Shown here one piece after another: positions 1-47,143 of a DNA stretch of 49,712 nucleotides. The position numbers were made by a program, and so were the translations under genes. The notes under the pieces are model-generated. The model did not search any database, was not told the DNA's origin, and saw nothing but the letters and a program-made list of their open reading frames with translations. The stretch is from a virus: the IMG/VR virus record IMGVR_UViG_3300010885_042435, positions 1-49,712 of that record; one strand, 5' to 3'. The stretch's first letter is position 1. Each line of letters starts with the position of its first letter.

Positions 1-1043
1 ATGCACCCCGGCCCGCCGGGGCATGACGAATCAAACCCGCCGCCGCCGTAGCCGGGCGCGAAATAGATTGCCGACGAGCCGTAAGTGGAGTAGGGGATGG
101 CTACGCCGCCGCTGCCGAACGCTGGCTCGGCATCGCAGTCCTCTGTGACTTTCATGCCGAGCAAAGCAACAGCGTCGAAAAGCCCGCTGCGACTCGTCGC
201 CGGGTGCCTGCGGCATGGCGACACAGGACGGGGGGCTTGGGGGGTGCCGTCTGGGTTGTTCCCGATTGTGCCGCCAATGCCGCCGCCGAACGTGTAGTTG
301 CCGCTGTATTGGACGGCTCCAGTGAACGGATAGGTGATCGATCCGCCCGCCTGACCGAAGTAGGCTCCGTAGCCAGTGCTGCCGGAGTTGCCTCCGACCC
401 ACCCGTCCCCGCCGCTGCCGTAGCCCGCGTTGACGGTGCTTGCCCCAAACGCCACTACCGATTCAGTGCCATATGTGACGCTGGCACGCGGAGAAAGTCC
501 GCCTGGTATGGGTGCGTTTTGGATATAGGCGGTCAGCGTCTGCCACGATTGAAACGGCGTGCGGTTCCATGTCTTCCACGCCAGACCGCCGCCTGCGCCT
601 CCCTCCGAAAATGTCCCACCGTTTCCAACGCACCACACCTTCACGCTCGTCGCCCAGCACGGCGGCGTCAGCGTTGTGGACGCAGTGATGAGTCTGACGT
701 TTGAGCCGCTCGCAAACGTCCAGTTAAAAAATTCAGCGGGCTGCCCAGCGCCGCACTTGTTGATTGCGAAAACGCGGAAAACGCCGCCGTCGCACCAACT
801 CAGAGTCGCCTGCCTTAGCCAAGCTTCGTTATTTGAGACAACCTGCCATGACGTGTTTGATGAGTTGACAGCGATCTCGACACGGTAGCCAGTGATCGGG
901 CCACCGCCAACGGATTCGGGGGCGTCCCACGCGAGCGTGCCAGACAGGAAGTACACGGCGTTGCCAATGCCGACCTGCCGCAGATTCGTCGGCGGCCCCG
1001 GCACAAGGCACGGACGACACGGGAAGCCAAGATGACCTTTCAC
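1..1043 (-). CDS. Tail/receptor protein with FN3 and glycine-rich region, 3' end cut by window edge
   Basis: The frame opens with GTG at 1043, whose GTGA overlaps the stop of the collagen-like fibre gene, and stays open to base 1. Residues about 12-105 read as a fibronectin type III domain ([38 protein letters not shown]). A glycine-rich domain follows from about residue 140, opening with [10 protein letters not shown] and [12 protein letters not shown], the same opening as the protein at the right edge of the window. Such modules are common in phage tail fibres and receptor-binding proteins, so a virion-surface role is inferred. The C-terminus lies beyond base 1; the last visible residues (CPGGPGC) look close to the end of a glycine-rich domain. 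Confidence 0.75.
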
Positions 1044-2059
1044 GCGAGGTCTCCAACAAGCAGCCATGAGTTGCTGCCAAGGTAGACGAGCGTCGCGCCA
1101 GACCCGACCGCACGTAGAGACGTGCCGGGCGTGCCAAGCACGCTCGCGCCGTCGCCCTGCACCTGCACGTCGGCGCTGCCGATGCGCGCGAGGTCGATGT
1201 GCGAACCAGCCACCCACGCCACGCTAGACGAGCTTGGGACCGTGAGAAGAAGCGTGCCGGTTGCCATGTTGAGCGTGAGTAGCGTGCCAACGTCGGACAG
1301 TTGCAGCGTGTAGTTGGCGGTCTTTGTGCTGATCGTTTGCGGGTCGCCAAACGAACCGGCGATCCCCTGCGGTCCGGTGCTGCCCGTGGCTCCCGCCGGA
1401 CCGGTCAACCCCTGCGGTCCCTGCGGTCCGGTCGCGCCCCGATCGCCCTGCGGTCCGGTGCTGCCCGTGGCTCCCGCCGGACCGGTCAACCCCTGCGGTC
1501 CCTGCGGTCCGGTCGCGCCCTGATCGCCCTGCGGTCCGGTGCTGCCCGTGGCTCCCGCCGGACCGGTCAACCCCTGCGGTCCGGTCGCGCCCGTGCTTCC
1601 GACGCCGCCCTTCGCCGCGAGCCGCGTCCAGAAGGTTCCCTCCGATGGAGTGTCTCCGACGTTGCCACCGTTGGCGTTGATTCGATACCACGTCTCGTCG
1701 TTGAACGTGGCAACGTCTCCAACGGCATATTCCTCGCCTCCGCTGTAGGCTCCGCGGAAATTCCACAGCGCGGCGGCACCGGTGTCGCCCTTGGGCAACA
1801 CCAGCGAGAGCGTCTGCGTTGGTGCCGCGCCGGTGATAGTGGCGGACGCCGTGTCGCCCTTCGTGACGGTGCCGATGGACAGCGAGTTAGGCGGGCCAAC
1901 CGGGCCGGTGTCTCCCTTGTTGCCCTTCTCGCCCGTCTGCGCAATCGTCACGGTGACGGTGTCGCCGTTACCAGCAACGGCAACGCTCACCGTCGAGCCG
2001 TTCGTCACGGTCGTGGTGATGCCGCTCGCGTCGGTGACCGATACGACGATGTCATTCAT
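1040..2059 (-). CDS. Collagen-like tail fibre protein with a carbohydrate-binding-like module
   Basis: This 339-residue protein has a beta-rich N-terminus (residues 1-45), a short Gly-X-Y stretch near 43-57, a module near 95-150 resembling a chitin-binding/CBM5-12 type domain ([26 protein letters not shown]), then about 75 residues of collagen repeats ([23 protein letters not shown]) and a beta-rich C-terminus. The collagen part is encoded by near-identical 81-bp repeats. It starts with an ATGA overlap with the gene before it and hands over to the FN3 gene by a GTGA overlap. Collagen-like fibres are typical phage adhesins, so it is most likely a side or tip fibre that contacts the host surface. 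Confidence 0.85.
1368..1601 (-). repeat. 81-bp tandem repeats encoding collagen triplets
   Basis: Two full units and a third, shorter one start near 1368, 1449 and 1530, at an exact spacing of 81 bases (27 codons, nine Gly-X-Y triplets). The full copies differ at very few positions (one reads GDQ where the other reads GDR), so they are recent or kept alike by recombination. Repeat number could vary between isolates and change fibre length. Confidence 0.85.
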
Positions 2060-19843: not shown

Positions 19844-20476
19844 TCACGCGTACTCCAGAATCTCGCCCTCGGGGAACTCGCTCACGTAGCCCGGCAGGCG
19901 GAACTTGAGCGACGCGAGGTAGTACGCGTCGCGAGTCTCGCCGACGTGGAGCGGCTGGCCGTTCGCACGCGTGGCGATGAGCCGGTCGGGCCAGAGCGCC
20001 ATCATCGCGAACGGGAACACGCCCATCGCTTCGCGTGCCGTGCGTGCCGCACGCGACAGCGGCTTGCCGCGGAACTTCTGGAGCATCAGCCCCAGCACCT
20101 CGCTGTCGCACTCCGTGTGCATCCGCAGGCGGTGCTTGGTGACGAGCGACCGGTAGTGGTGGATGACCCCGTTGTGGACAACGTATGAGTCTCCGCCGTC
20201 GTGCGGGTGGTTGTTCGTGTTGTCCGCCGGGTCGCCGTGCGTCGCCCAGCGGCAGTGGCCGATGAGCAGCCGCGCGTCCTTCGCCATCGCGAGCAGTCCA
20301 AGCGAATCAACAATCGCACCGGTCTGCTTGTAGGTGCGGAGCTTGCCGCGTCCGTCCACCCACGCCATGCCCCACGCGTGTGGTCCGCGGCTCATCGTGA
20401 TGGTCGCGATAGCCTTGATGGTGGGGAGGTCGAGCTTGTTGTCGCCCTTCGCAACGAATCCAAAAATGCCGCACAT
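19844..20476 (-). CDS. Class II (Ntn-type) glutamine amidotransferase
   Basis: The 210-residue protein starts MCGIFGFV: removal of Met exposes Cys2, the catalytic nucleophile. Other GATase-II signatures are SRGPHAWGMAW, LLIGHCRWATHGDP (the Arg and Thr/His of the glutamine pocket), NHPHDGG and VVHNGVIHHY. It is a stand-alone domain that releases ammonia from glutamine. The partner is almost certainly the amidoligase 77 bases upstream in the same transcript, a combination reported as a recurring but biochemically unassigned pair in bacteria and phages. Confidence 0.9.
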   Translation of the reverse strand: MCGIFGFVAKGDNKLDLPTIKAIATITMSRGPHAWGMAWVDGRGKLRTYKQTGAIVDSLGLLAMAKDARLLIGHCRWATHGDPADNTNNHPHDGGDSYVVHNGVIHHYRSLVTKHRLRMHTECDSEVLGLMLQKFRGKPLSRAARTAREAMGVFPFAMMALWPDRLIATRANGQPLHVGETRDAYYLASLKFRLPGYVSEFPEGEILEYA

Positions 20477-20552: not shown

Positions 20553-21416
20553 TCAGCCGTCCAGCGGAGCGGCGTCGTACTTCTTCGCGAGGCGGGAAAG
20601 CTGCTTGCGAGCGGCGTCCATCGTCGGCACGCCGTCGGCTTCGATGACGCCGTAGACACCCTTGGTGCTGGCACCGTTCTTCCGCCAGCCGATGGAGTAG
20701 AGCAGGCGGACAAGCTCCGCGTGACCCTCGCCGCCGGTGAACCGACCGCGGTTGCGAGTCGCGGACGCGCTGGTGGCGAACCGCGTGGCCTTCACGTTCA
20801 TCGCCTTCTCGACCAGTGCGACGCACAGCCGCACGTAGGCCGCGGCCTTCTCGGCATTGAGCGACGCACCGAACACGCGAAACTCGACGGTGGGCTTGCC
20901 GCCCGTGGCGAGGTTGAGGACGTGGTAGCGGTCGTGGCGAGCGTGCGCCTCGGCGCTGGAAGCGTTGCCGTACTGCTTCACGCTCTTGCACCAGCAGGTG
21001 CGGTAGCGGCTGCCGACACCCTGCTCGCGGCCGCGCGTGCCGGTCACAGCGTAGAGCGCCTTCTCATGGTTGGCGACAAGGTTGAGCAGCTTGCGGACGG
21101 CGGGGGTGTTCGCCTTGTCGAAGCCGACGTGAACGTGCAGGCCGCACGACGCGTTGACCTGACCGCCGCGCCGCTTGATCTCGGCGATGACCTCGCACAG
21201 CTGACGCAGGCCATCGGCACCCTTCAGCACCGGCGAGACAAACTCGCAGCCGACGCGGTTGTCATTCGGCGGGATGATCGACGGGTCGGCGTCAGCCAGC
21301 CAGCCAGCCGGGAGCCACTCGACCTGTGCGCCGCAGCCGTGTCCACCGCGGACAACCGCACCGCGGGGCATGTGCGTCTCAATCTCGACACCGAAAGTGA
21401 TCTCAGCAGCGTTCAT
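20553..21416 (-). CDS. Amidoligase (COOH-NH2 ligase, amidoligase_2 type)
   Basis: The 287-residue protein matches the glutamine-synthetase-fold amidoligase family: ITFGVEIETHMP at the N-terminus (acidic metal ligands), GCEFVSPVLKGADGL, then GGQVNASCGLHVHVGFD and, near the end, TVEFRVFGASLNAEK with the nucleotide-site Arg. Such enzymes are predicted to join a carboxylate to an amine using ATP. It is transcribed from promoter P3 and followed by the class II amidotransferase, which could supply ammonia or activate glutamine. The substrate is unknown: peptide tags, cell-wall units or modified DNA bases are all possible. Confidence 0.9.
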   Translation of the reverse strand: MNAAEITFGVEIETHMPRGAVVRGGHGCGAQVEWLPAGWLADADPSIIPPNDNRVGCEFVSPVLKGADGLRQLCEVIAEIKRRGGQVNASCGLHVHVGFDKANTPAVRKLLNLVANHEKALYAVTGTRGREQGVGSRYRTCWCKSVKQYGNASSAEAHARHDRYHVLNLATGGKPTVEFRVFGASLNAEKAAAYVRLCVALVEKAMNVKATRFATSASATRNRGRFTGGEGHAELVRLLYSIGWRKNGASTKGVYGVIEADGVPTMDAARKQLSRLAKKYDAAPLDG

Positions 21417-22551: not shown

Positions 22552-23430
22552 ATGCTGCTCGTCACGTTTCTGACCACCGTCTACGTCCCGCTTCGCTTGC
22601 GTGGCCGCTCGCAGGAGAGCGTCCGCCTGCTCCATCACGCCATCCGGCGGTTCTCTCGGTGGCTGCGGCACGACGCCACGCTTGAGGACTTGGATGACCT
22701 CGTTGTCGCGCAGTTCCTGCTTGCCCGATCCGCGGAGGTGTCACCGAACTCGGTGGCACGCGAGCGGTCCGGCCTCGTTGCTCTGTGGAATCTCGCGCAG
22801 GCCCGCGGGTTGGTGCGGCTGCGACCGTGCGTGCAGGCGGAACTCCTGCCAGAGAAGACACCGCGTGCGTTGACCGCGGAGGAACTCGACGCGTTGGTGG
22901 CAAGTGCCGCGGCGGCGCAAGGCTGGATTGGCCCGGTGCGTGCCTCGTCGTTCTTTCTCGCGTTGATCGGCGTCGGGTTCTACACCGGCGAACGCATCAC
23001 AGCGATGCTGACGATTCCACGCGAGTGCTGGCGGCGACCGTGGCTCACGGTCCCAGCCGTCTCACGCAAGGGTGGGCGGCAGGAACGCATCTACGAGTTG
23101 CCCGATGACGTGGCCGACCTGCTCGACGCGGCGTCGAAGCACGAAGGACCGCACCTGCTTTGGTTCCCCTCGTCCGACACCGCACTCCGCAAGCGGTGGA
23201 AGGTCATCACGCGTCGTGCCGGGCTGGGCGACGCACGCGATGTTCAGTTTCACGTCCTGCGCAAAAGCACCGCGTCGCATCTAGCCGCGGCTGGCGGTGA
23301 TGCCACCACGTATCTCGGACACTCGTCCGACCGCGTCACGCGGAAAAGCTATCTCGACCCGCGCATCACCACCGCGAACAAGCCAAAAATCTGGCAGATG
23401 CTCCCGCACCTGTTTCCAAAGCGAGCTTAG
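22552..23430 (+). CDS. int: Tyrosine recombinase (phage integrase)
   Basis: ATG 22552 follows TGGAGG at six bases and gives 292 residues. The N-terminal part is a SAM-like core-binding domain (QESVRLLHHAIRRFSRWL). The catalytic domain has the first Arg in GFYTGERITAML, Lys in VSRKGGRQER, the HxxR box in FHVLRKSTASHLAA, then LGHSSDRVTRKSYLDP with the late His and the nucleophilic Tyr. This shows that the phage can integrate. It is on the opposite strand to nearly all other genes and ends at a strong two-sided hairpin. Confidence 0.92.
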   Translation: MLLVTFLTTVYVPLRLRGRSQESVRLLHHAIRRFSRWLRHDATLEDLDDLVVAQFLLARSAEVSPNSVARERSGLVALWNLAQARGLVRLRPCVQAELLPEKTPRALTAEELDALVASAAAAQGWIGPVRASSFFLALIGVGFYTGERITAMLTIPRECWRRPWLTVPAVSRKGGRQERIYELPDDVADLLDAASKHEGPHLLWFPSSDTALRKRWKVITRRAGLGDARDVQFHVLRKSTASHLAAAGGDATTYLGHSSDRVTRKSYLDPRITTANKPKIWQMLPHLFPKRA

Positions 23431-40929: not shown

Positions 40930-42436
40930 TGGGAACTCCTGCGACGGGCTGCACCACCGGTGCGGTCACCTTGACCCCGGCGATGATGGCACTGACCTGT
41001 TGGGACGATAGCTGCGGGAACGACGCGGCAAGCACCGCGCTCGCACCATCCGACGTGAGCAGACCGGATGCAATGTTCGCAAGCACTTCCAGAAGGCTTG
41101 TGATCTGCGCACCGTTCAACGCGGCGGCGGCAAAGTTCTGCTCCACAGTGTCCGGTGTGCCGGTCGGTGCCGACGCTGGTTGCGATTCCTCCGCGGGCGA
41201 CTCCTCGGTGGGTTGCTCCTCCTCCGCCGGGGCAACCGGCTCCGCCGCCATCCGCTCCACGGTGGTCATGTTGAGCGGGAAGAAATGCTGGTCGCCGCCC
41301 TCCACCGGGTTGAGCGACTCCGCCGCGCGGGCCTCGTTCACGCTCATCACGCCGCGGTCGATCATGCTGGAAAGGTATTGCGACCGGGCCGCGGCGTCGC
41401 CGCGAAGCAGGCCACGCACGTCGAACTCCACGAAATACTTGTCGGGCTGCGCGATGAGGTCGCGGGTGAACGCCGCCTCAAAACGTCGCAGCCAAGGCAG
41501 GATCGACCCTTGGGTGAAGTCGATGCTCTGCTGTTCAATGTTGCTGAAGGTAGCTCGCGACAAGTCCTGCACCATGTGCGGCGGCACGCGGTACAGCCTG
41601 CATATCTCCTCGACTTGAAAACGCCGCGCCTCAAGGAACTGGCTGTCCGTGTTGGTCGACCCAAGCTCATGCGCCTTCAGCCCGCCTGTGAGGACAGCCG
41701 TCTTGCTCGACTTGTCGGGGCCGCGGTGCATCCGCTCCCAGTTCTCTCGCAGACGCTCCGCCGCTTCGGCGGCAAGGTTGCCATCGGTCTCCAGCACGAT
41801 GCCGGGCCTCGCGCCGTTGCCAAAATATCTTGCTCCGTGCATCTCGCAGGCGCGTGCCAAGCCGATGGCTTCCTTGCCAAGCTCAATCGGAAGCTGCCCG
41901 ACGATGCCGTCGTTGCTCATCCAGCGGACGTGAAAAATCTGGTCTTGGTTGTAGACCGTCTTGGCACCGCTCGGCTCGGTGTACGTGTACCGCAGCCGCC
42001 CGTTCTCAATACGTTCCACCTTCATGCGGCTGGGGTGCAGCGGCACAAGCTCGGCAACGGTGCCAGCCGGGCCGGGGCAGATTTCGGAATAGCAGTTGCC
42101 GTACAGCCCAAGGTGGATCATCGAAGTCTCGCGCCACTCAAACGATGTCATCCATGCGTTTGGCGCGATAGACAGCAGCGTGTCGAGCCAGCCGGGGTAG
42201 CGGTCCTTGCCGCCGCTTGCGAGCCGCTGGTACGCGTGGACCGGAAGGCTGGCAACCGTCTCCGCGAGGACGCGCACGCACGCCATCACGACCGTTGTCT
42301 TGAAGGCGTTCTCGGAAGTAATCCGCACGCCCGATGACGCACCGCGTGCGAAGCCGTAGTCATCGTCCAGCAGCGCCCCAAAGAACCGCTGTTCCGGTGA
42401 CACGTCCCACACCGCGGAGATAATTTGGTCGCTCAT
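40907..42436 (-). CDS. Portal protein (HK97 family)
   Basis: ATG 42436 overlaps the terminase stop (ATGA). The 509-residue product has the HK97 portal features: VMACVRVLAETVASLPVHAY, WMTSFEWRETSMIHLGLYGN, YTEPSGAKTVYNQDQIFHVR, LEARRFQVEEICRLYRVPPH and TQGSILPWLRRFEAAFTRDL. The C-terminal 120 residues are Glu/Pro/Ala-rich and disordered. It forms the dodecameric DNA gateway. Confidence 0.93.
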   Translation of the reverse strand: MSDQIISAVWDVSPEQRFFGALLDDDYGFARGASSGVRITSENAFKTTVVMACVRVLAETVASLPVHAYQRLASGGKDRYPGWLDTLLSIAPNAWMTSFEWRETSMIHLGLYGNCYSEICPGPAGTVAELVPLHPSRMKVERIENGRLRYTYTEPSGAKTVYNQDQIFHVRWMSNDGIVGQLPIELGKEAIGLARACEMHGARYFGNGARPGIVLETDGNLAAEAAERLRENWERMHRGPDKSSKTAVLTGGLKAHELGSTNTDSQFLEARRFQVEEICRLYRVPPHMVQDLSRATFSNIEQQSIDFTQGSILPWLRRFEAAFTRDLIAQPDKYFVEFDVRGLLRGDAAARSQYLSSMIDRGVMSVNEARAAESLNPVEGGDQHFFPLNMTTVERMAAEPVAPAEEEQPTEESPAEESQPASAPTGTPDTVEQNFAAAALNGAQITSLLEVLANIASGLLTSDGASAVLAASFPQLSSQQVSAIIAGVKVTAPVVQPVAGVPNADPATS

Positions 42437-44049
42437 AGCAGAATGATTTCCGGTGCCGGTGCTGGCGGTTCCTTTGCCTCCGCCGACCATGCACCAAGTG
42501 CCATGACCAGCGAGATGATGCCGTCCACCCGTTCGTGACTGTTTTCCTTTGGCTTCACCGGGCGGATATGGCCGTCGGCGTTTTGCCGGATTGCCACGTT
42601 GCCAGCCATCCACTGAAGCACCGGGTTGCCGCCGTGCCGAATCTTCCCGGCGGACAGCAAAGTTTCCAGCAGCTTGCTAGGCGCGCTCATCCCGGCAAAA
42701 CCCTGTTGCCACTGCACTACGTTGATGCCGTCTCCCTGTAGCTGGTTCGCTAACTGCGTCGCGTTCCACCTGTCAATCGCCAGCTTGCGGACGTTGTGCG
42801 TGCTGGCGAACTCCACGATGTCGCGCCGTATCACGTCGTAGTCGGTCACGTTGCCGCTGGTGGCGGACACGAAACCTCCATTCGCCCATTGTAAAAATGG
42901 CACTTTGTCCCGTCTTTCGCGCTCGGTCATGTTGTCGGATGGAATCCAAAACCGACACAGCACGTCGAGCGATCCATCGTCCGCGGGGAAGCACGCAACG
43001 AAGGCGGACGTGTCATACGTGCTGGCAAGGTCAAGCCCGCACCAACACTCCCTGCCAACGAGGTCGTGCGGAGGCTGCGAGTTGCACGCCTGCCACGTTT
43101 CCATTTTGATCCACCGCGTGTCTTGGCTCGTCCACTGGTTCAAGCGGTAGCGGCGGAACGACCCCTCCTTGCTGACAGACTGCTGCGCCTCGCGGCAGTC
43201 CGCGGCAAAGTCCGCTTCGTTGATGGTCACGCCCCACGATGGATTCGCCTTGGGCCATGCGTCGGGCGACTTCCAATCTTCCTCCGCCGGAACCTCGTAG
43301 ATGCACGGGAAGAACGTCGGGTCGTGCCGCCAATCATTCTGCACCGCCTTGGCGTATGCGTACTGCTCGTAGCAGATGCTCGCTCGGTCGTAGCCCGCCG
43401 TTGTGATGCTGACGAGAAGCGGCTGCTCCCGCGCCGCACCACCGTAGCGAAGCGAATCAAAAAGCCTACGGTCACGCTGGGCGTGCAGCTCGTCAAAAAG
43501 CAGACCGTGGATATTCAACCCCTCCGCGCGGAACGCGTCGGCGGACAGGACTCTGTAGAACGACGCCGCGCTGCGGTAGGCAATGGTGCGGCGCGAGTCC
43601 ACGACCTCAAGCGCCGCGGAGAGCAGCGGGGACGCACGCACCATCGACGCCGCTTCACGGAACACGATGGAGGCGGACTCCCGGTCCGTTGCCGCGCCGT
43701 AGATTTCGGCACCGGCTTCGCCGTCCGCCAGCAGGAGGTACAGGCCAATCCCGGCGAGGATCGTAGACTTGCCGGATTTCTTCGCGGTGCTGATGTACGC
43801 CATGCGGTAGCGGCGCAAGCCGTTGTCCACACGCGCCCAGCCGAAAAGCTCGGCGAGCATTTCCTGCTGCCACTCCAGCAGGTGGAACGGCTGACCGGCG
43901 AAGCGTCCCTTGGAATGACGCAGCCAATCTTGGAAGAACGCCAGGACGTGTTCCGCCCGCTGGCTGTCGAAGTAGAACTCAAGCCCCTGCTTGATTGCCT
44001 CGCTTCGCGACAAAGGCTGCAATCGGGTCGGCTTCGGCTCGGCTTCCAT
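42433..44049 (-). CDS. Terminase large subunit
   Basis: The 538-residue protein has an N-terminal ATPase with FHLLEWQQEMLAELFGW, Walker A at 88-95 (TAKKSGKS), Walker B at 183-188 (LLFDEL) and motif III near LLVSITTAGYD. The C-terminal nuclease shows WCGLDLASTYDTSAFV (first Asp), KLAIDRWNATQLANQL and RVDGIISLVMALG (last Asp). This is the HK97-like terminase type. The start lies 70 bases inside the small subunit gene. Confidence 0.94.
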   Translation of the reverse strand: MEAEPKPTRLQPLSRSEAIKQGLEFYFDSQRAEHVLAFFQDWLRHSKGRFAGQPFHLLEWQQEMLAELFGWARVDNGLRRYRMAYISTAKKSGKSTILAGIGLYLLLADGEAGAEIYGAATDRESASIVFREAASMVRASPLLSAALEVVDSRRTIAYRSAASFYRVLSADAFRAEGLNIHGLLFDELHAQRDRRLFDSLRYGGAAREQPLLVSITTAGYDRASICYEQYAYAKAVQNDWRHDPTFFPCIYEVPAEEDWKSPDAWPKANPSWGVTINEADFAADCREAQQSVSKEGSFRRYRLNQWTSQDTRWIKMETWQACNSQPPHDLVGRECWCGLDLASTYDTSAFVACFPADDGSLDVLCRFWIPSDNMTERERRDKVPFLQWANGGFVSATSGNVTDYDVIRRDIVEFASTHNVRKLAIDRWNATQLANQLQGDGINVVQWQQGFAGMSAPSKLLETLLSAGKIRHGGNPVLQWMAGNVAIRQNADGHIRPVKPKENSHERVDGIISLVMALGAWSAEAKEPPAPAPEIILL

Positions 44050-44506
44050 TCGTTGTCACCTGAGACCGGCTGCTCGGCGTCATGCCGAACTCTTGCTCTA
44101 TCCGCAGCATCGCGGCGTGGTGCCGGTGCATCTGCGTTGCCCACGGCGCGACCTGCGTGTATTTGATTCGCAGCTTGCCGTCCGTGCGGTTGGGGTCGGG
44201 CTCCCAGTGCGTGTATTCCTCACCCGCGATCTTCACCTTCTCATAGCACGCAAGGTAGAGGGCCGTTTCAATGCAGTACCGCGTGAGCGTCGGTACGTCG
44301 GCCTCGGTCAGCACGCGCATCCTCGCCAGCCTTGGCACGATGTCGCGCCACACTTCAGCCGACTTGCCGTCGAGCGTAGACGGCTGCGGCAGGTCGAGCG
44401 GAACGATGTCAGGCGTCGGCTCGTCGCCGTTGAGCGTTTCCTTGCTCGGGTTGCCGCGAATGTATTTGAGGATCGACGGCTGCGGAGCCGGGCCGCGCTT
44501 GCCCAT
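43979..44506 (-). CDS. Terminase small subunit, P27 family
   Basis: The 175-residue protein has the P27 marks: an N-terminal basic region (MGKRGPAPQPSILKYIRGNP), then AEVWRDIVPRLARMRVLTEA and DVPTLTRYCIETALY, and a conserved ending (RHHAAMLRIEQEFGMTPSSR). It recognises phage DNA and starts packaging. P27 terminases are often paired with an HNH nuclease at the cos site, as here. Confidence 0.9.
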   Translation of the reverse strand: MGKRGPAPQPSILKYIRGNPSKETLNGDEPTPDIVPLDLPQPSTLDGKSAEVWRDIVPRLARMRVLTEADVPTLTRYCIETALYLACYEKVKIAGEEYTHWEPDPNRTDGKLRIKYTQVAPWATQMHRHHAAMLRIEQEFGMTPSSRSQVTTNGSRAEADPIAAFVAKRGNQAGA

Positions 44507-44518
44507 AAGTGTTTTCTC

Positions 44519-45208
44519 CTATGACCAAAAATACATCAAAGCGTCTTGCCATGCTGGCCACGCGTCTTCTGTGAAAACTGTTTTCGGCACGGAGTGGTGC
44601 TTGAAATGCGAAAGCAACGGAGCGATCCTTCGCCGCGCGTTGCCGCAGCTTTTGTCAAACCGGAAGTGGTACTCCATCGCCAATGCCCTCACGCCTTCAA
44701 GTGGAAAACCTGCGTCGAGGATCGGCAGCTCTCCGCCCTCGATGTCCAGCTTGATTCCCTGCGGCGTGTGCTTGTGTATCTCGGAAGCGAGCGACAGGTT
44801 GCTTACGAAGCGTTGCACGCCAGCCGACCGCGGTGATGATCGGGCTGGGGTGCGCGGGTTGAATTGGACCGACGTGACACCGCTATCACGCGCTGTCACG
44901 AATGCGGTTGTCACGGTTGAGTGACAGCCATTCAGCCTAAAATTTTCTTTGGCTATTGCCGTGTTTTCGCTGCAAGCTTCGTAGCCAACGACGATTGCGT
45001 CGTATTGCTTTTCTGCCCACACAGCAAACGCCCCCACGTTTGCACCGCAGTCCAGCCAAAGCTCTCCCTGCCCGACAGAAAACCCTAGCCGCGGTTTTTC
45101 GTAGCAGCGAGCCTCAACAACCTCCCGGTACACTTCATCATCCTGCTTGCCGCGAGAGGCAAACAGCATCCCACCAACGCTGATGGTTTTCAGTCCGGCT
45201 GTTGTCAT
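44519..45208 (-). CDS. FkbM-type SAM-dependent methyltransferase
   Basis: ATG 45208 overlaps the dioxygenase stop (ATGA) and gives 229 residues. SAM-binding motif I is ELWLDCGANVGAFAVWA (50-65), the next acidic motif IVVGYEACSENTAIAKENF, and the FkbM signature GIKLDIEGGELPIL (151-164). FkbM proteins methylate hydroxyl groups of sugars or polyketides. The coupling to the dioxygenase raises the possibility that it methylates a hydroxylated base or a sugar attached to it; capsid or host glycan targets are alternatives. Confidence 0.85.
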   Translation of the reverse strand: MTTAGLKTISVGGMLFASRGKQDDEVYREVVEARCYEKPRLGFSVGQGELWLDCGANVGAFAVWAEKQYDAIVVGYEACSENTAIAKENFRLNGCHSTVTTAFVTARDSGVTSVQFNPRTPARSSPRSAGVQRFVSNLSLASEIHKHTPQGIKLDIEGGELPILDAGFPLEGVRALAMEYHFRFDKSCGNARRRIAPLLSHFKHHSVPKTVFTEDAWPAWQDALMYFWS

Positions 45209-46047
45209 GTGTGGCCCGCCTCGTCTTTCTTGACATGTGCAGCTTTGCGTCGCTCGGTTGCCGTCCGCCGCTCTCGCAACGCATCCACCTCGCCACGCAC
45301 GGTGTCGCAGTTCCACATTTGCTTGAGCGAGTAGTAGACGATGGTGAAGCGGAACGCGTCCTCCGACAGCCGCCTAATCGGCGTGACGCCATGCAGCAGC
45401 TTCTGCCCGTCGAAAAGAATCAGCGAGCGGTCGCCAATCTCAAACGCGATGCCAAGCTCGGGGCAGGCGAGGTGGCCGCCTTGCGTGTTGTGGCGGAAAC
45501 CGATCATCGCGGAGCAGACTTGCGAGAAGTTGCCAGCGTCGAAGTGGTACTGGAGAGGGTTGTTGTAGTGGACGATGCCACTTGTGAAGACGCTGCCGGG
45601 GATCATCCACTGCTCTCGCACCCGCGTCGCTACTTCGCGATGATGCGCGTGCGTTTCTGAAAAGAACTTCTGGTAGTACGAGTCCACAGCTGGCGCAGCG
45701 TTGCAGATCGCGGCGTGTTCTTGCGGGTGATCAGTCGCCATCGACGTGGCCCGGCACGGATGCCCTCGCAGCGTGTTGCGCGGCGCGTAGCCGAAAATCC
45801 TGCTGGTGGAAACAAGCCCGCTGGTTCGCGTGCTGGTCGAATACTTCACGCCTTGAACCGCAGCACGCGCGCGTTCCACCTCGGGGTGCGACAGCCTCGC
45901 GATGTAGACGATCTTCGTCTGGCCGTTCACCTGCACGGTGCAGTCATCGGCGACGAGCGTGTCGCAGTCTGACTCCTGTGCGGACCGCTTTTGAAGCGCT
46001 CGCGGGTCAATGTCACGCGGGGTCGCGCTGAGATACCGCATAGCCAT
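45205..46047 (-). CDS. TET/JBP-like 2-oxoglutarate/Fe(II) dioxygenase
   Basis: The 280-residue protein has all catalytic features of this enzyme group: iron ligands H168 and D170 in LQYHFDAGNF, H219 in LLHGVTPI, and a 2-oxoglutarate-binding Arg near 233 (FRFTIVYYSL). The surrounding pattern, FTSGIVHYNN before the HxD and GGHLACPELGIAFEI between the ligands, matches phage TET/JBP-type base dioxygenases better than prolyl hydroxylases. Known members oxidise 5-methylcytosine or thymine in DNA. It lies between a ParB-like gene and the methyltransferase with 35- and 4-base overlaps, beside the terminase. No cytosine methylase is seen in the window, so its substrate may be thymine, or 5-methylcytosine made by the host. 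Confidence 0.8.
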   Translation of the reverse strand: MAMRYLSATPRDIDPRALQKRSAQESDCDTLVADDCTVQVNGQTKIVYIARLSHPEVERARAAVQGVKYSTSTRTSGLVSTSRIFGYAPRNTLRGHPCRATSMATDHPQEHAAICNAAPAVDSYYQKFFSETHAHHREVATRVREQWMIPGSVFTSGIVHYNNPLQYHFDAGNFSQVCSAMIGFRHNTQGGHLACPELGIAFEIGDRSLILFDGQKLLHGVTPIRRLSEDAFRFTIVYYSLKQMWNCDTVRGEVDALRERRTATERRKAAHVKKDEAGHT

Positions 46048-46666
46048 TGGTTTCCAAGAGGTGCAGAATGACTTCCGTGTTGTTCGCTAACCCGAACTTT
46101 TCTGCGTGTTCGCCAAGCGCGTTCACGACCGCCTCGTACTGGTCGTTTTCAAAGACAAGCACGACCTGACGAATCGCACTGGCCGCATAGTCGCGGTCGG
46201 TGTCCGCTCCCTTCGCCTCAACGGGCTGCACCTCGTCAACGCTTCTGGACGTGTCGTACAAGCCAGCCTGCGCCGCGGTGCTGGCGAGCATCTGCTGAAG
46301 CGCTTCGCTGCCCGTATCCACGCTGCGAAGCAACTCGTCCAGCTTCACCGCGTCGCTGTCCGCCATCGCCGCCAACGGGTCGAGCGTTGCGAGCAGCTTG
46401 TCCGCCTCCGCCTCGTTCACGTCGAGTACCAAAACTGGTACGGTCGCGTCCGCCGCCGTTTCGGCGCGGAGGTGGCCGTCGATGAGCATGAGGGAGCCGT
46501 CCTCAAGCTCGCGGGCCAGCACCGCGTCGGCCATGCCGATCTCCGCCAGCACCCCGCGTAACGCGTCCTGCTGCGATTTGGGGTGCGTTCGCCAGTTCTT
46601 GGGGTTTGGACGCAGGTCGGACGCGGGGACCGTCCTGAGTTCACGCACGCGGTTGCGTATGTTCAT
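46013..46666 (-). CDS. ParB-like domain protein
   Basis: The 217-residue protein begins with a ParB/sulfiredoxin-like fold: RTVPASDLRPNPKNWRTHPK, ALRGVLAEIGMADAVLA and LMLIDGHLRAETAADATVPV, where DGHLR is the GHRR-type box. The C-terminal half is helical and acidic (SDAVKLDELLRSVDTGSEAL). ParB-like proteins of phages often stand near terminases and DNA-modification enzymes and may guide or nick DNA. The start is 14 bases downstream of the third copy of the GCATAACC repeat core. Confidence 0.82.
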   Translation of the reverse strand: MNIRNRVRELRTVPASDLRPNPKNWRTHPKSQQDALRGVLAEIGMADAVLARELEDGSLMLIDGHLRAETAADATVPVLVLDVNEAEADKLLATLDPLAAMADSDAVKLDELLRSVDTGSEALQQMLASTAAQAGLYDTSRSVDEVQPVEAKGADTDRDYAASAIRQVVLVFENDQYEAVVNALGEHAEKFGLANNTEVILHLLETNGYAVSQRDPA

Positions 46667-46846: not shown

Positions 46847-47143
46847 TCAGCCGCCGCCCACGGTCTTGGACGAGTGGCACCGCACGCACAAGGTTTGCAG
46901 GTTCGTCAAGTCATCGGTGCCGCCAATCCGCTTCGGTACGACGTGGTCGACGTGCGCCTCACGCTTGCCGTCGCACAGCTTGCCGCACGCGCGGCACTCC
47001 CAGTTGTCACGCACCAGCACCGCTTTGCGTGTGGCGAACCACGACGCGTCGCAGTAGCCACGCTGGTACGCGTTGGCGCGCTCGACGGCGGGGCGTACAC
47101 GCTGCTTCGGTGCGGGGCGGTGCGTTGGTACGCGGCGTGGCAT
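46847..47143 (-). CDS. HNH endonuclease
   Basis: The 98-residue protein has a basic N-terminus and the zinc-bound HNH fold: DNWECRACGKLCDG with two of the zinc cysteines, AHVDHVVPKRIGGTDDLTNL with the His-Asp-His metal/nucleophile residues, and LCVRCHSSKTVGGG with the second zinc pair. Small HNH nucleases near P27 terminases assist cos cleavage in HK97-type phages. ATG 47143 shares a base with the stop of the preceding gene. Confidence 0.9.
   Translation of the reverse strand: MPRRVPTHRPAPKQRVRPAVERANAYQRGYCDASWFATRKAVLVRDNWECRACGKLCDGKREAHVDHVVPKRIGGTDDLTNLQTLCVRCHSSKTVGGG

Follow-up and report, generated by a model that had tools for sequence, protein, structure and literature searches.

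A neighbourhood of three genes, encoding a ParB-like protein, a TET/JBP dioxygenase and an FkbM-family methyltransferase, is coupled in phage genomes to an extent that far exceeds chance, and this coupling, tested from three sides, is the strongest result of our analysis of one virus record, 49,712 bases long (the window). We consider it fairly probable that the trio constitutes a phage DNA hypermodification cassette, in which the ParB-like protein would serve as an adaptor, the TET enzyme would act on thymine and the FkbM enzyme would O-methylate the product to give a 5-methoxymethyl pyrimidine. The FkbM cassette would be a new form of TET/JBP-based hypermodification of phage DNA, its predicted product being a methoxymethyl base. 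If true, this would add to the known natural bases of DNA and give FkbM methyltransferases their first function in DNA.

Gene layout and protein families of the cassette

Nearly all genes of the window lie on the minus strand, in the order tail-like genes, HNH, ParB-like, TET, FkbM, TerS, TerL, portal and capsid (Table 1). A sequence-only reading of this DNA had described three overlapping genes at 44519-46666, with a complete HxD...H...R dioxygenase site, a ParB-like box and an FkbM methyltransferase, and each of these elements was recovered here. The ParB and TET genes overlap by 35 bases, or by 29 if the second TET ATG is used, and the TET and FkbM genes by 4, the FkbM start being taken at the ATG (45208) and a GTG-started reading frame to 45316 being judged over-long. 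Strong AGGAG-type sites precede ParB (AAGGAG) and TerS (AGGAG), and TET and FkbM have no comparable site, which fits translational coupling of the cassette as one unit; the same -4 spacing between TET and FkbM is seen again in most related loci. Repeats within the cassette look like chance only, and no terminal repeat was found in the 49,712-base record. Elsewhere in the window, a tyrosine integrase is encoded at 22552-23430 on the plus strand, opposite to nearly all other genes, and the phage is therefore probably temperate. In addition, a predicted tail or fibre gene (1040-2059, minus strand) contains collagen-like GPxG repeats, and an amidoligase (20553-21416, minus strand) and a class II glutamine amidotransferase (19844-20476, minus strand) form a pair.

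Table 1. Features of the ParB-TET-FkbM cassette and its flanks in the window; dioxygenase residues are numbered on the 280-aa protein.
Feature	Position	Strand	Remarks
HNH endonuclease gene, upstream of cassette	46847..47143	-	also upstream in L008, L009, L018, L021
ParB-like protein, TET partner	46013..46666	-	217 aa; PHROG, family profile, ParB_N in relatives
TET/JBP 2-oxoglutarate/Fe(II) dioxygenase	45205..46047	-	280 aa; 278 aa from second ATG at 46041
HxD Fe(II)-binding motif of dioxygenase, H168 and D170	45538..45546	-	invariant in 61/61 homologues
Distal Fe(II) H219 to 2-oxoglutarate R233 of dioxygenase	45349..45393	-	H 61/61; R 60/61, one gap
ATGA overlap, TET stop/FkbM start	45205..45208	-	4 bases
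FkbM-family SAM methyltransferase, predicted hydroxymethyl-base methylator	44519..45208	-	229 aa from ATG; profiles, fold, neighbourhood
Terminase small subunit (TerS)	43979..44506	-	12 bases downstream of FkbM
Terminase large subunit (TerL)	42433..44049	-	profile matches

By its profile match and its modelled fold, the dioxygenase is a true TET/JBP protein, for which DNA oxidation is predicted. The Pfam Tet_JBP profile (PF12851) matched it at 1.2e-11 with 44.6 bits, against a cut-off of 34.9. A search of the PDB with an AlphaFold model (pLDDT 72.6, moderate confidence) gave 26 fold matches at E<=0.001, all of them to TET enzymes (CMD1, NgTET1, CcTet, TET2); prolyl hydroxylases and other dioxygenases entered the ranking only from 5e-3, after ranks 1-26, which places the TET fold nearer than that of prolyl hydroxylases or AlkB. 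The choice between TET/JBP and prolyl-hydroxylase families, which the sequence-only reading had left to a profile search, thus fell to TET/JBP for both the best profile and the best fold matches, with no hydroxylase family among them, and a prolyl- or metabolite-hydroxylase identity is ruled out by the Tet_JBP profile and the fold ranking. A profile search of the PDB with a narrow TET alignment gave no match, and phmmer with the dioxygenase gave one sensible match only, to CMD1 at 0.019. The fold, the HxD...H...R site and PF12851 are common to the window protein and the TET/JBP family (TET1-3, NgTET1, CcTet, CMD1, JBP1/2 and phage TETs), from which the window protein differs in being short and stand-alone and in having a near-obligate ParB-like partner gene; its identity to the nearest named phage proteins is about 29-36%. 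TET matches were present in 97 of 50,697 public phage records (about 0.2%). None of the three cassette proteins matched a defence system in PADLOC.

The PHROG name ‘queuine tRNA-ribosyltransferase’ is probably a carried-over annotation, the dioxygenase sequence being Tet_JBP. Other TETs are likely misnamed either in this way (also PHROG 6059) or as DnaJ/SNF2, and one ParB-like protein as DNA methylase; records with likely misnaming of one or the other include MW055906, NC_023701 and others, MN698246 gp18 and JF974286 CPAG_00033.

In the ParB-like protein, a ParB domain (LIDGHLRAETA) at the N-terminus is followed by a C-terminal tail (RQVVLVF...NNTEVILHLLETNGY), relatives of which were seen in our survey beside TET genes only. 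Its assignment is backed by PHROG 723 (4.7e-12) and also PHROG 620, by a family profile that matched solved ParB/Noc/Spo0J structures at 3.2e-14, and by Pfam ParB_N, which matches 10 of 24 members of the ParB family, the window protein not being among them. In the related locus L021 (1865-5731), three ParB-like genes precede, one each, FkbM, TET and a third putative methyltransferase, and in L011 one ParB gene precedes TET and another precedes a C5-methyltransferase, as if every enzyme had its own adaptor. We infer a role for the ParB-like protein in DNA loading or targeting. The three-ParB cassette of L021 is followed by a DUF5131-like gene.

The FkbM call was borne out by both curated family profiles (PF05050, 32.5 bits against a cut-off of 22.7; TIGR01444, 47.3 against 37.7) and by a fold of the generic class I (SAM) methyltransferase type. 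No close solved relative of the window protein was matched, and no solved DNA-modifying FkbM; as the fold is generic and such a relative is missing, the acceptor is not readable from the sequence. While the window protein resembles the FkbM family in passing these cut-offs, its subfamily differs in being tied to ParB-TET and in giving no relative in a pattern scan of 84,980 bacterial and archaeal genomes. Similarly, a genome-wide scan with the TET alignment, intended like the FkbM scan to detect prophage hosts, gave no relative.

Conservation of the neighbourhood and exchange of its third gene

The ParB-TET-FkbM triplet, for which the sequence-only reading had proposed a neighbourhood survey, proved to be strongly conserved in related as well as very distant phages. 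Among 59 clusters of TET homologues, obtained by clustering at 90% identity, a ParB gene lies upstream of TET in 58, the only exception being L102; the count is 58 because L018, at first scored like L102 as having no adjacent ParB, does have one. A scan anchored on the ParB protein, with only its last 60 residues as the query, found TET adjoining in 61 of 61 loci, including loci shared with the TET-anchored survey. The third scan, anchored on FkbM, covered 60 loci and found TET beside FkbM in nearly all of those where the contig reaches (it is cut by the contig edge in L120 and L121), and in this search the association holds down to 23-33% identity and in many lineages. Only L083 and L084 depart clearly from this pattern, and both still have a ParB-like gene at most two genes upstream of FkbM. 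In L083 (4015-6684) the order is ParB, radical SAM and FkbM, with the radical SAM enzyme in the TET position, and in L084 (5207-6666) ParB is followed by FkbM, with a gene resembling the L083 radical SAM further down. Although TET matches occur in only about 0.2% of public phage records, the six such records with the nearest FkbM relatives belong to two lineages that both carry the trio: ParB-FkbM-TET in MED4-117 and the Prochlorococcus phages MED4-184 and P-HS2, and ParB-TET-FkbM in Pelagibacter phage HTVC112P. P-HS2 is a cultured Prochlorococcus siphovirus (PMC7852597), and its assignment is based on FkbM match coordinates that are the same as in MED4-184.

The third position of ParB-TET cassettes is exchangeable, being occupied by FkbM, glycosyltransferases, kinases, aGPT-PPlase, a family of ~292 aa, once by a C5-methyltransferase (L011), or by none. 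Of 75 loci in the Prochlorococcus-type lineage, 64 have FkbM between ParB and TET, 5 have a glycosyltransferase there, and 6 have no gene in that place. None of the 59 TET clusters combines FkbM (31 clusters) with another decorating enzyme (17) (Fisher p 8e-8, a value that, like the slot counts over these clusters, ignores kinship), and in a quick TET tree with long branches at least six changes of the FkbM label fall on starred branches. The mutual exclusion points to the TET product, and not a sugar, as the substrate of FkbM, and the exchange with enzymes that glycosylate or phosphorylate hydroxyls makes the TET-made hydroxyl the most likely target of this enzyme. Action of FkbM on a sugar added by a glycosyltransferase is not favoured, since the two never share a cassette. 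The earlier proposal that FkbM caps a hydroxymethyl base therefore gains good support from context, through the shared slot and the mutual exclusion, and its product would be that predicted above.

Substrate, product and alternative explanations

As the sequence-only reading had stated, the window encodes no C5-methyltransferase and its cassette no glycosyltransferase. Likewise, 46 of 47 related records, among them complete genomes of cultured phages, have no C5-methyltransferase gene, although such an absence counts for less in the many virus records that are fragments. No thymidylate-synthase-type hydroxymethylase, as in the nucleotide-level route of T4 and SPO1, was found in any of 30 records, and neither a 5hmU DNA kinase nor an aGPT-PPlase lies beside the ParB-TET pair of the window, both being present in relatives with the same pair. 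Phage-encoded C5-methylation and nucleotide-level hydroxymethylation were rejected on these gene absences. Since C5-methyltransferase and hydroxymethylase are both missing, and the ParB-TET pair of phage Tonitrus is linked to thymidine, thymine is the preferred substrate, and the gene content, together with this analogy, suggests that the TET enzyme more likely acts on thymine in DNA than on host-made 5-methylcytosine (5mC).

We propose that the ParB-like adaptor would bind or load on phage DNA and recruit TET through its TET-specific C-terminal tail. The TET enzyme would then act on a pyrimidine within the DNA and hydroxylate its 5-methyl group, most likely converting thymine to 5-hydroxymethyluracil, and FkbM, with SAM, would O-methylate the hydroxyl to yield 5-methoxymethyluracil, or 5-methoxymethylcytosine if 5mC were the substrate. 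Such a small uncharged cap may hide the DNA from restriction enzymes as well as from enzymes that recognise 5-hydroxymethyl pyrimidines.

That the same cassette oxidises 5mC supplied by host methylation, with 5-methoxymethylcytosine as the product, is unlikely but is the chief rival reading. Its best argument is L011 (3-3164), which lies inside the TET clade of the window and has the order ParB-TET-ParB-C5-methyltransferase, with ParB and the C5-methyltransferase in place of FkbM, an arrangement that fits a 5mC substrate; it holds the sole C5-methyltransferase among the 47 records. Moreover, 5mC oxidases are among the nearest solved structures of the window TET, and the phage TETs characterised in the 2021 work of Burke et al. 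are said to act on 5mC. However, the methyltransferase is missing from the window and from the other 46 of those records, and enzymes of thymidine hypermodification sit in other ParB-TET cassettes. As TET enzymes can proceed to formyl and carboxyl products, the base might instead be oxidised to a carboxylic acid, from which FkbM would make a methyl ester, or an amide would follow with the amidoligase; this we regard as very improbable. Amidoligase and glutamine amidotransferase genes do occur in the window and in some relatives, and their homologues directly follow FkbM in L038/L039; Amidoligase_2 occurred in 5 of 43 ParB-TET/FkbM records, as compared with 74 phage records out of 50,697 that the window protein matched in tblastn, two counts obtained by different methods. 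Yet most FkbM records lack an amidoligase, and the enzymes with which FkbM shares its slot, glycosyltransferases and kinases, have hydroxyls as their targets.

A looser connection between the genes is also conceivable. The hydroxyl groups that named FkbM enzymes methylate belong to small molecules and glycans, and the lack of a match to any solved DNA-modifying FkbM would suit a phage methyltransferase with an unrelated target, such as a glycan or a protein, that stands beside the TET module by chance. We consider this decidedly improbable, given that the association with TET persists to such low identities in many lineages, with ATGA overlaps and glycosyltransferase exchange, and that the pattern scan of bacterial and archaeal genomes gave no relatives of the protein. 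Alternatively, the cassette might mark DNA for packaging or shield it from the phage's own HNH enzyme or terminase, and not protect against host restriction. In the window and its close relatives the cassette has an HNH gene on one side and the terminase genes on the other, and a terminase is also nearby in Kharcho, Indlovu, Terij and MED4-117, but no terminase gene adjoins the cassette in Klevey, and many other hypermodifications are anti-restriction; packaging or self-protection therefore seems improbable to us. The reading that we prefer remains hydroxymethylation by TET, most likely of thymine, followed by O-methylation by FkbM.

Relation to known hypermodification systems

ParB-TET cassettes with a kinase, pyrophosphorylase or glycosyltransferase are already known in outline. 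The ParB-TET of Rhodococcus phage Tonitrus, with aGPT-PPlase and a kinase, is a published thymidine hypermodification system (PMC11955845), in which ParB, TET and then a decorating enzyme follow one another as in the window, and the ParB-TET-glycosyltransferase cassettes of Mycobacterium and Arthrobacter phages share this order. In contrast to all of these, the decorator in the window is FkbM, and its cassette holds no kinase, pyrophosphorylase, glycosyltransferase or deacetylase. The 5mC-dependent phage TET pathway, which comprises C5-methyltransferase, TET and a glycosyl- or other transferase, is alike in principle in that oxidation precedes capping, and differs in the C5-methyltransferase that the window and nearly all related records lack. 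The 5-hydroxymethylcytosine (5hmC) carbamoyltransferase found by MetaGPA is likewise a small-group transferase that caps a hydroxymethyl pyrimidine, but there 5hmC is made at the nucleotide level by a thymidylate-synthase relative (PMC8670742), which the window lacks, and the group transferred is carbamoyl, whereas methyl is predicted here. Our literature search, with partial coverage that leaves room for an earlier mention, found no paper linking TET/JBP to ParB or FkbM.

In our estimation it is evenly balanced whether phages with the trio carry 5-methoxymethyluracil or -cytosine as an undescribed base and the ParB-TET pair is a general platform for capping enzymes that add methyl, sugar or phosphate groups or belong to the ~292-aa family. 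On this proposal, the ParB-like adaptor and TET would form a platform of interchangeable parts for DNA hypermodification. If it is right, the cassette would also offer a DNA-writing enzyme for sequencing chemistry, one that blocks hydroxymethyl groups, and would represent a new anti-restriction strategy that is seemingly common in marine viromes. The occurrence of the trio in cultured marine phages, P-HS2/MED4-184/MED4-117 and HTVC112P, makes the predicted base easy to test. In addition, the ~292-aa family, of which the one member scanned had no Pfam match, is a candidate new base-decorating enzyme; it follows TET in L047, L055 (1485-2363), L063 and L040, and in L046 (1510-3293) it is present as two tandem copies.
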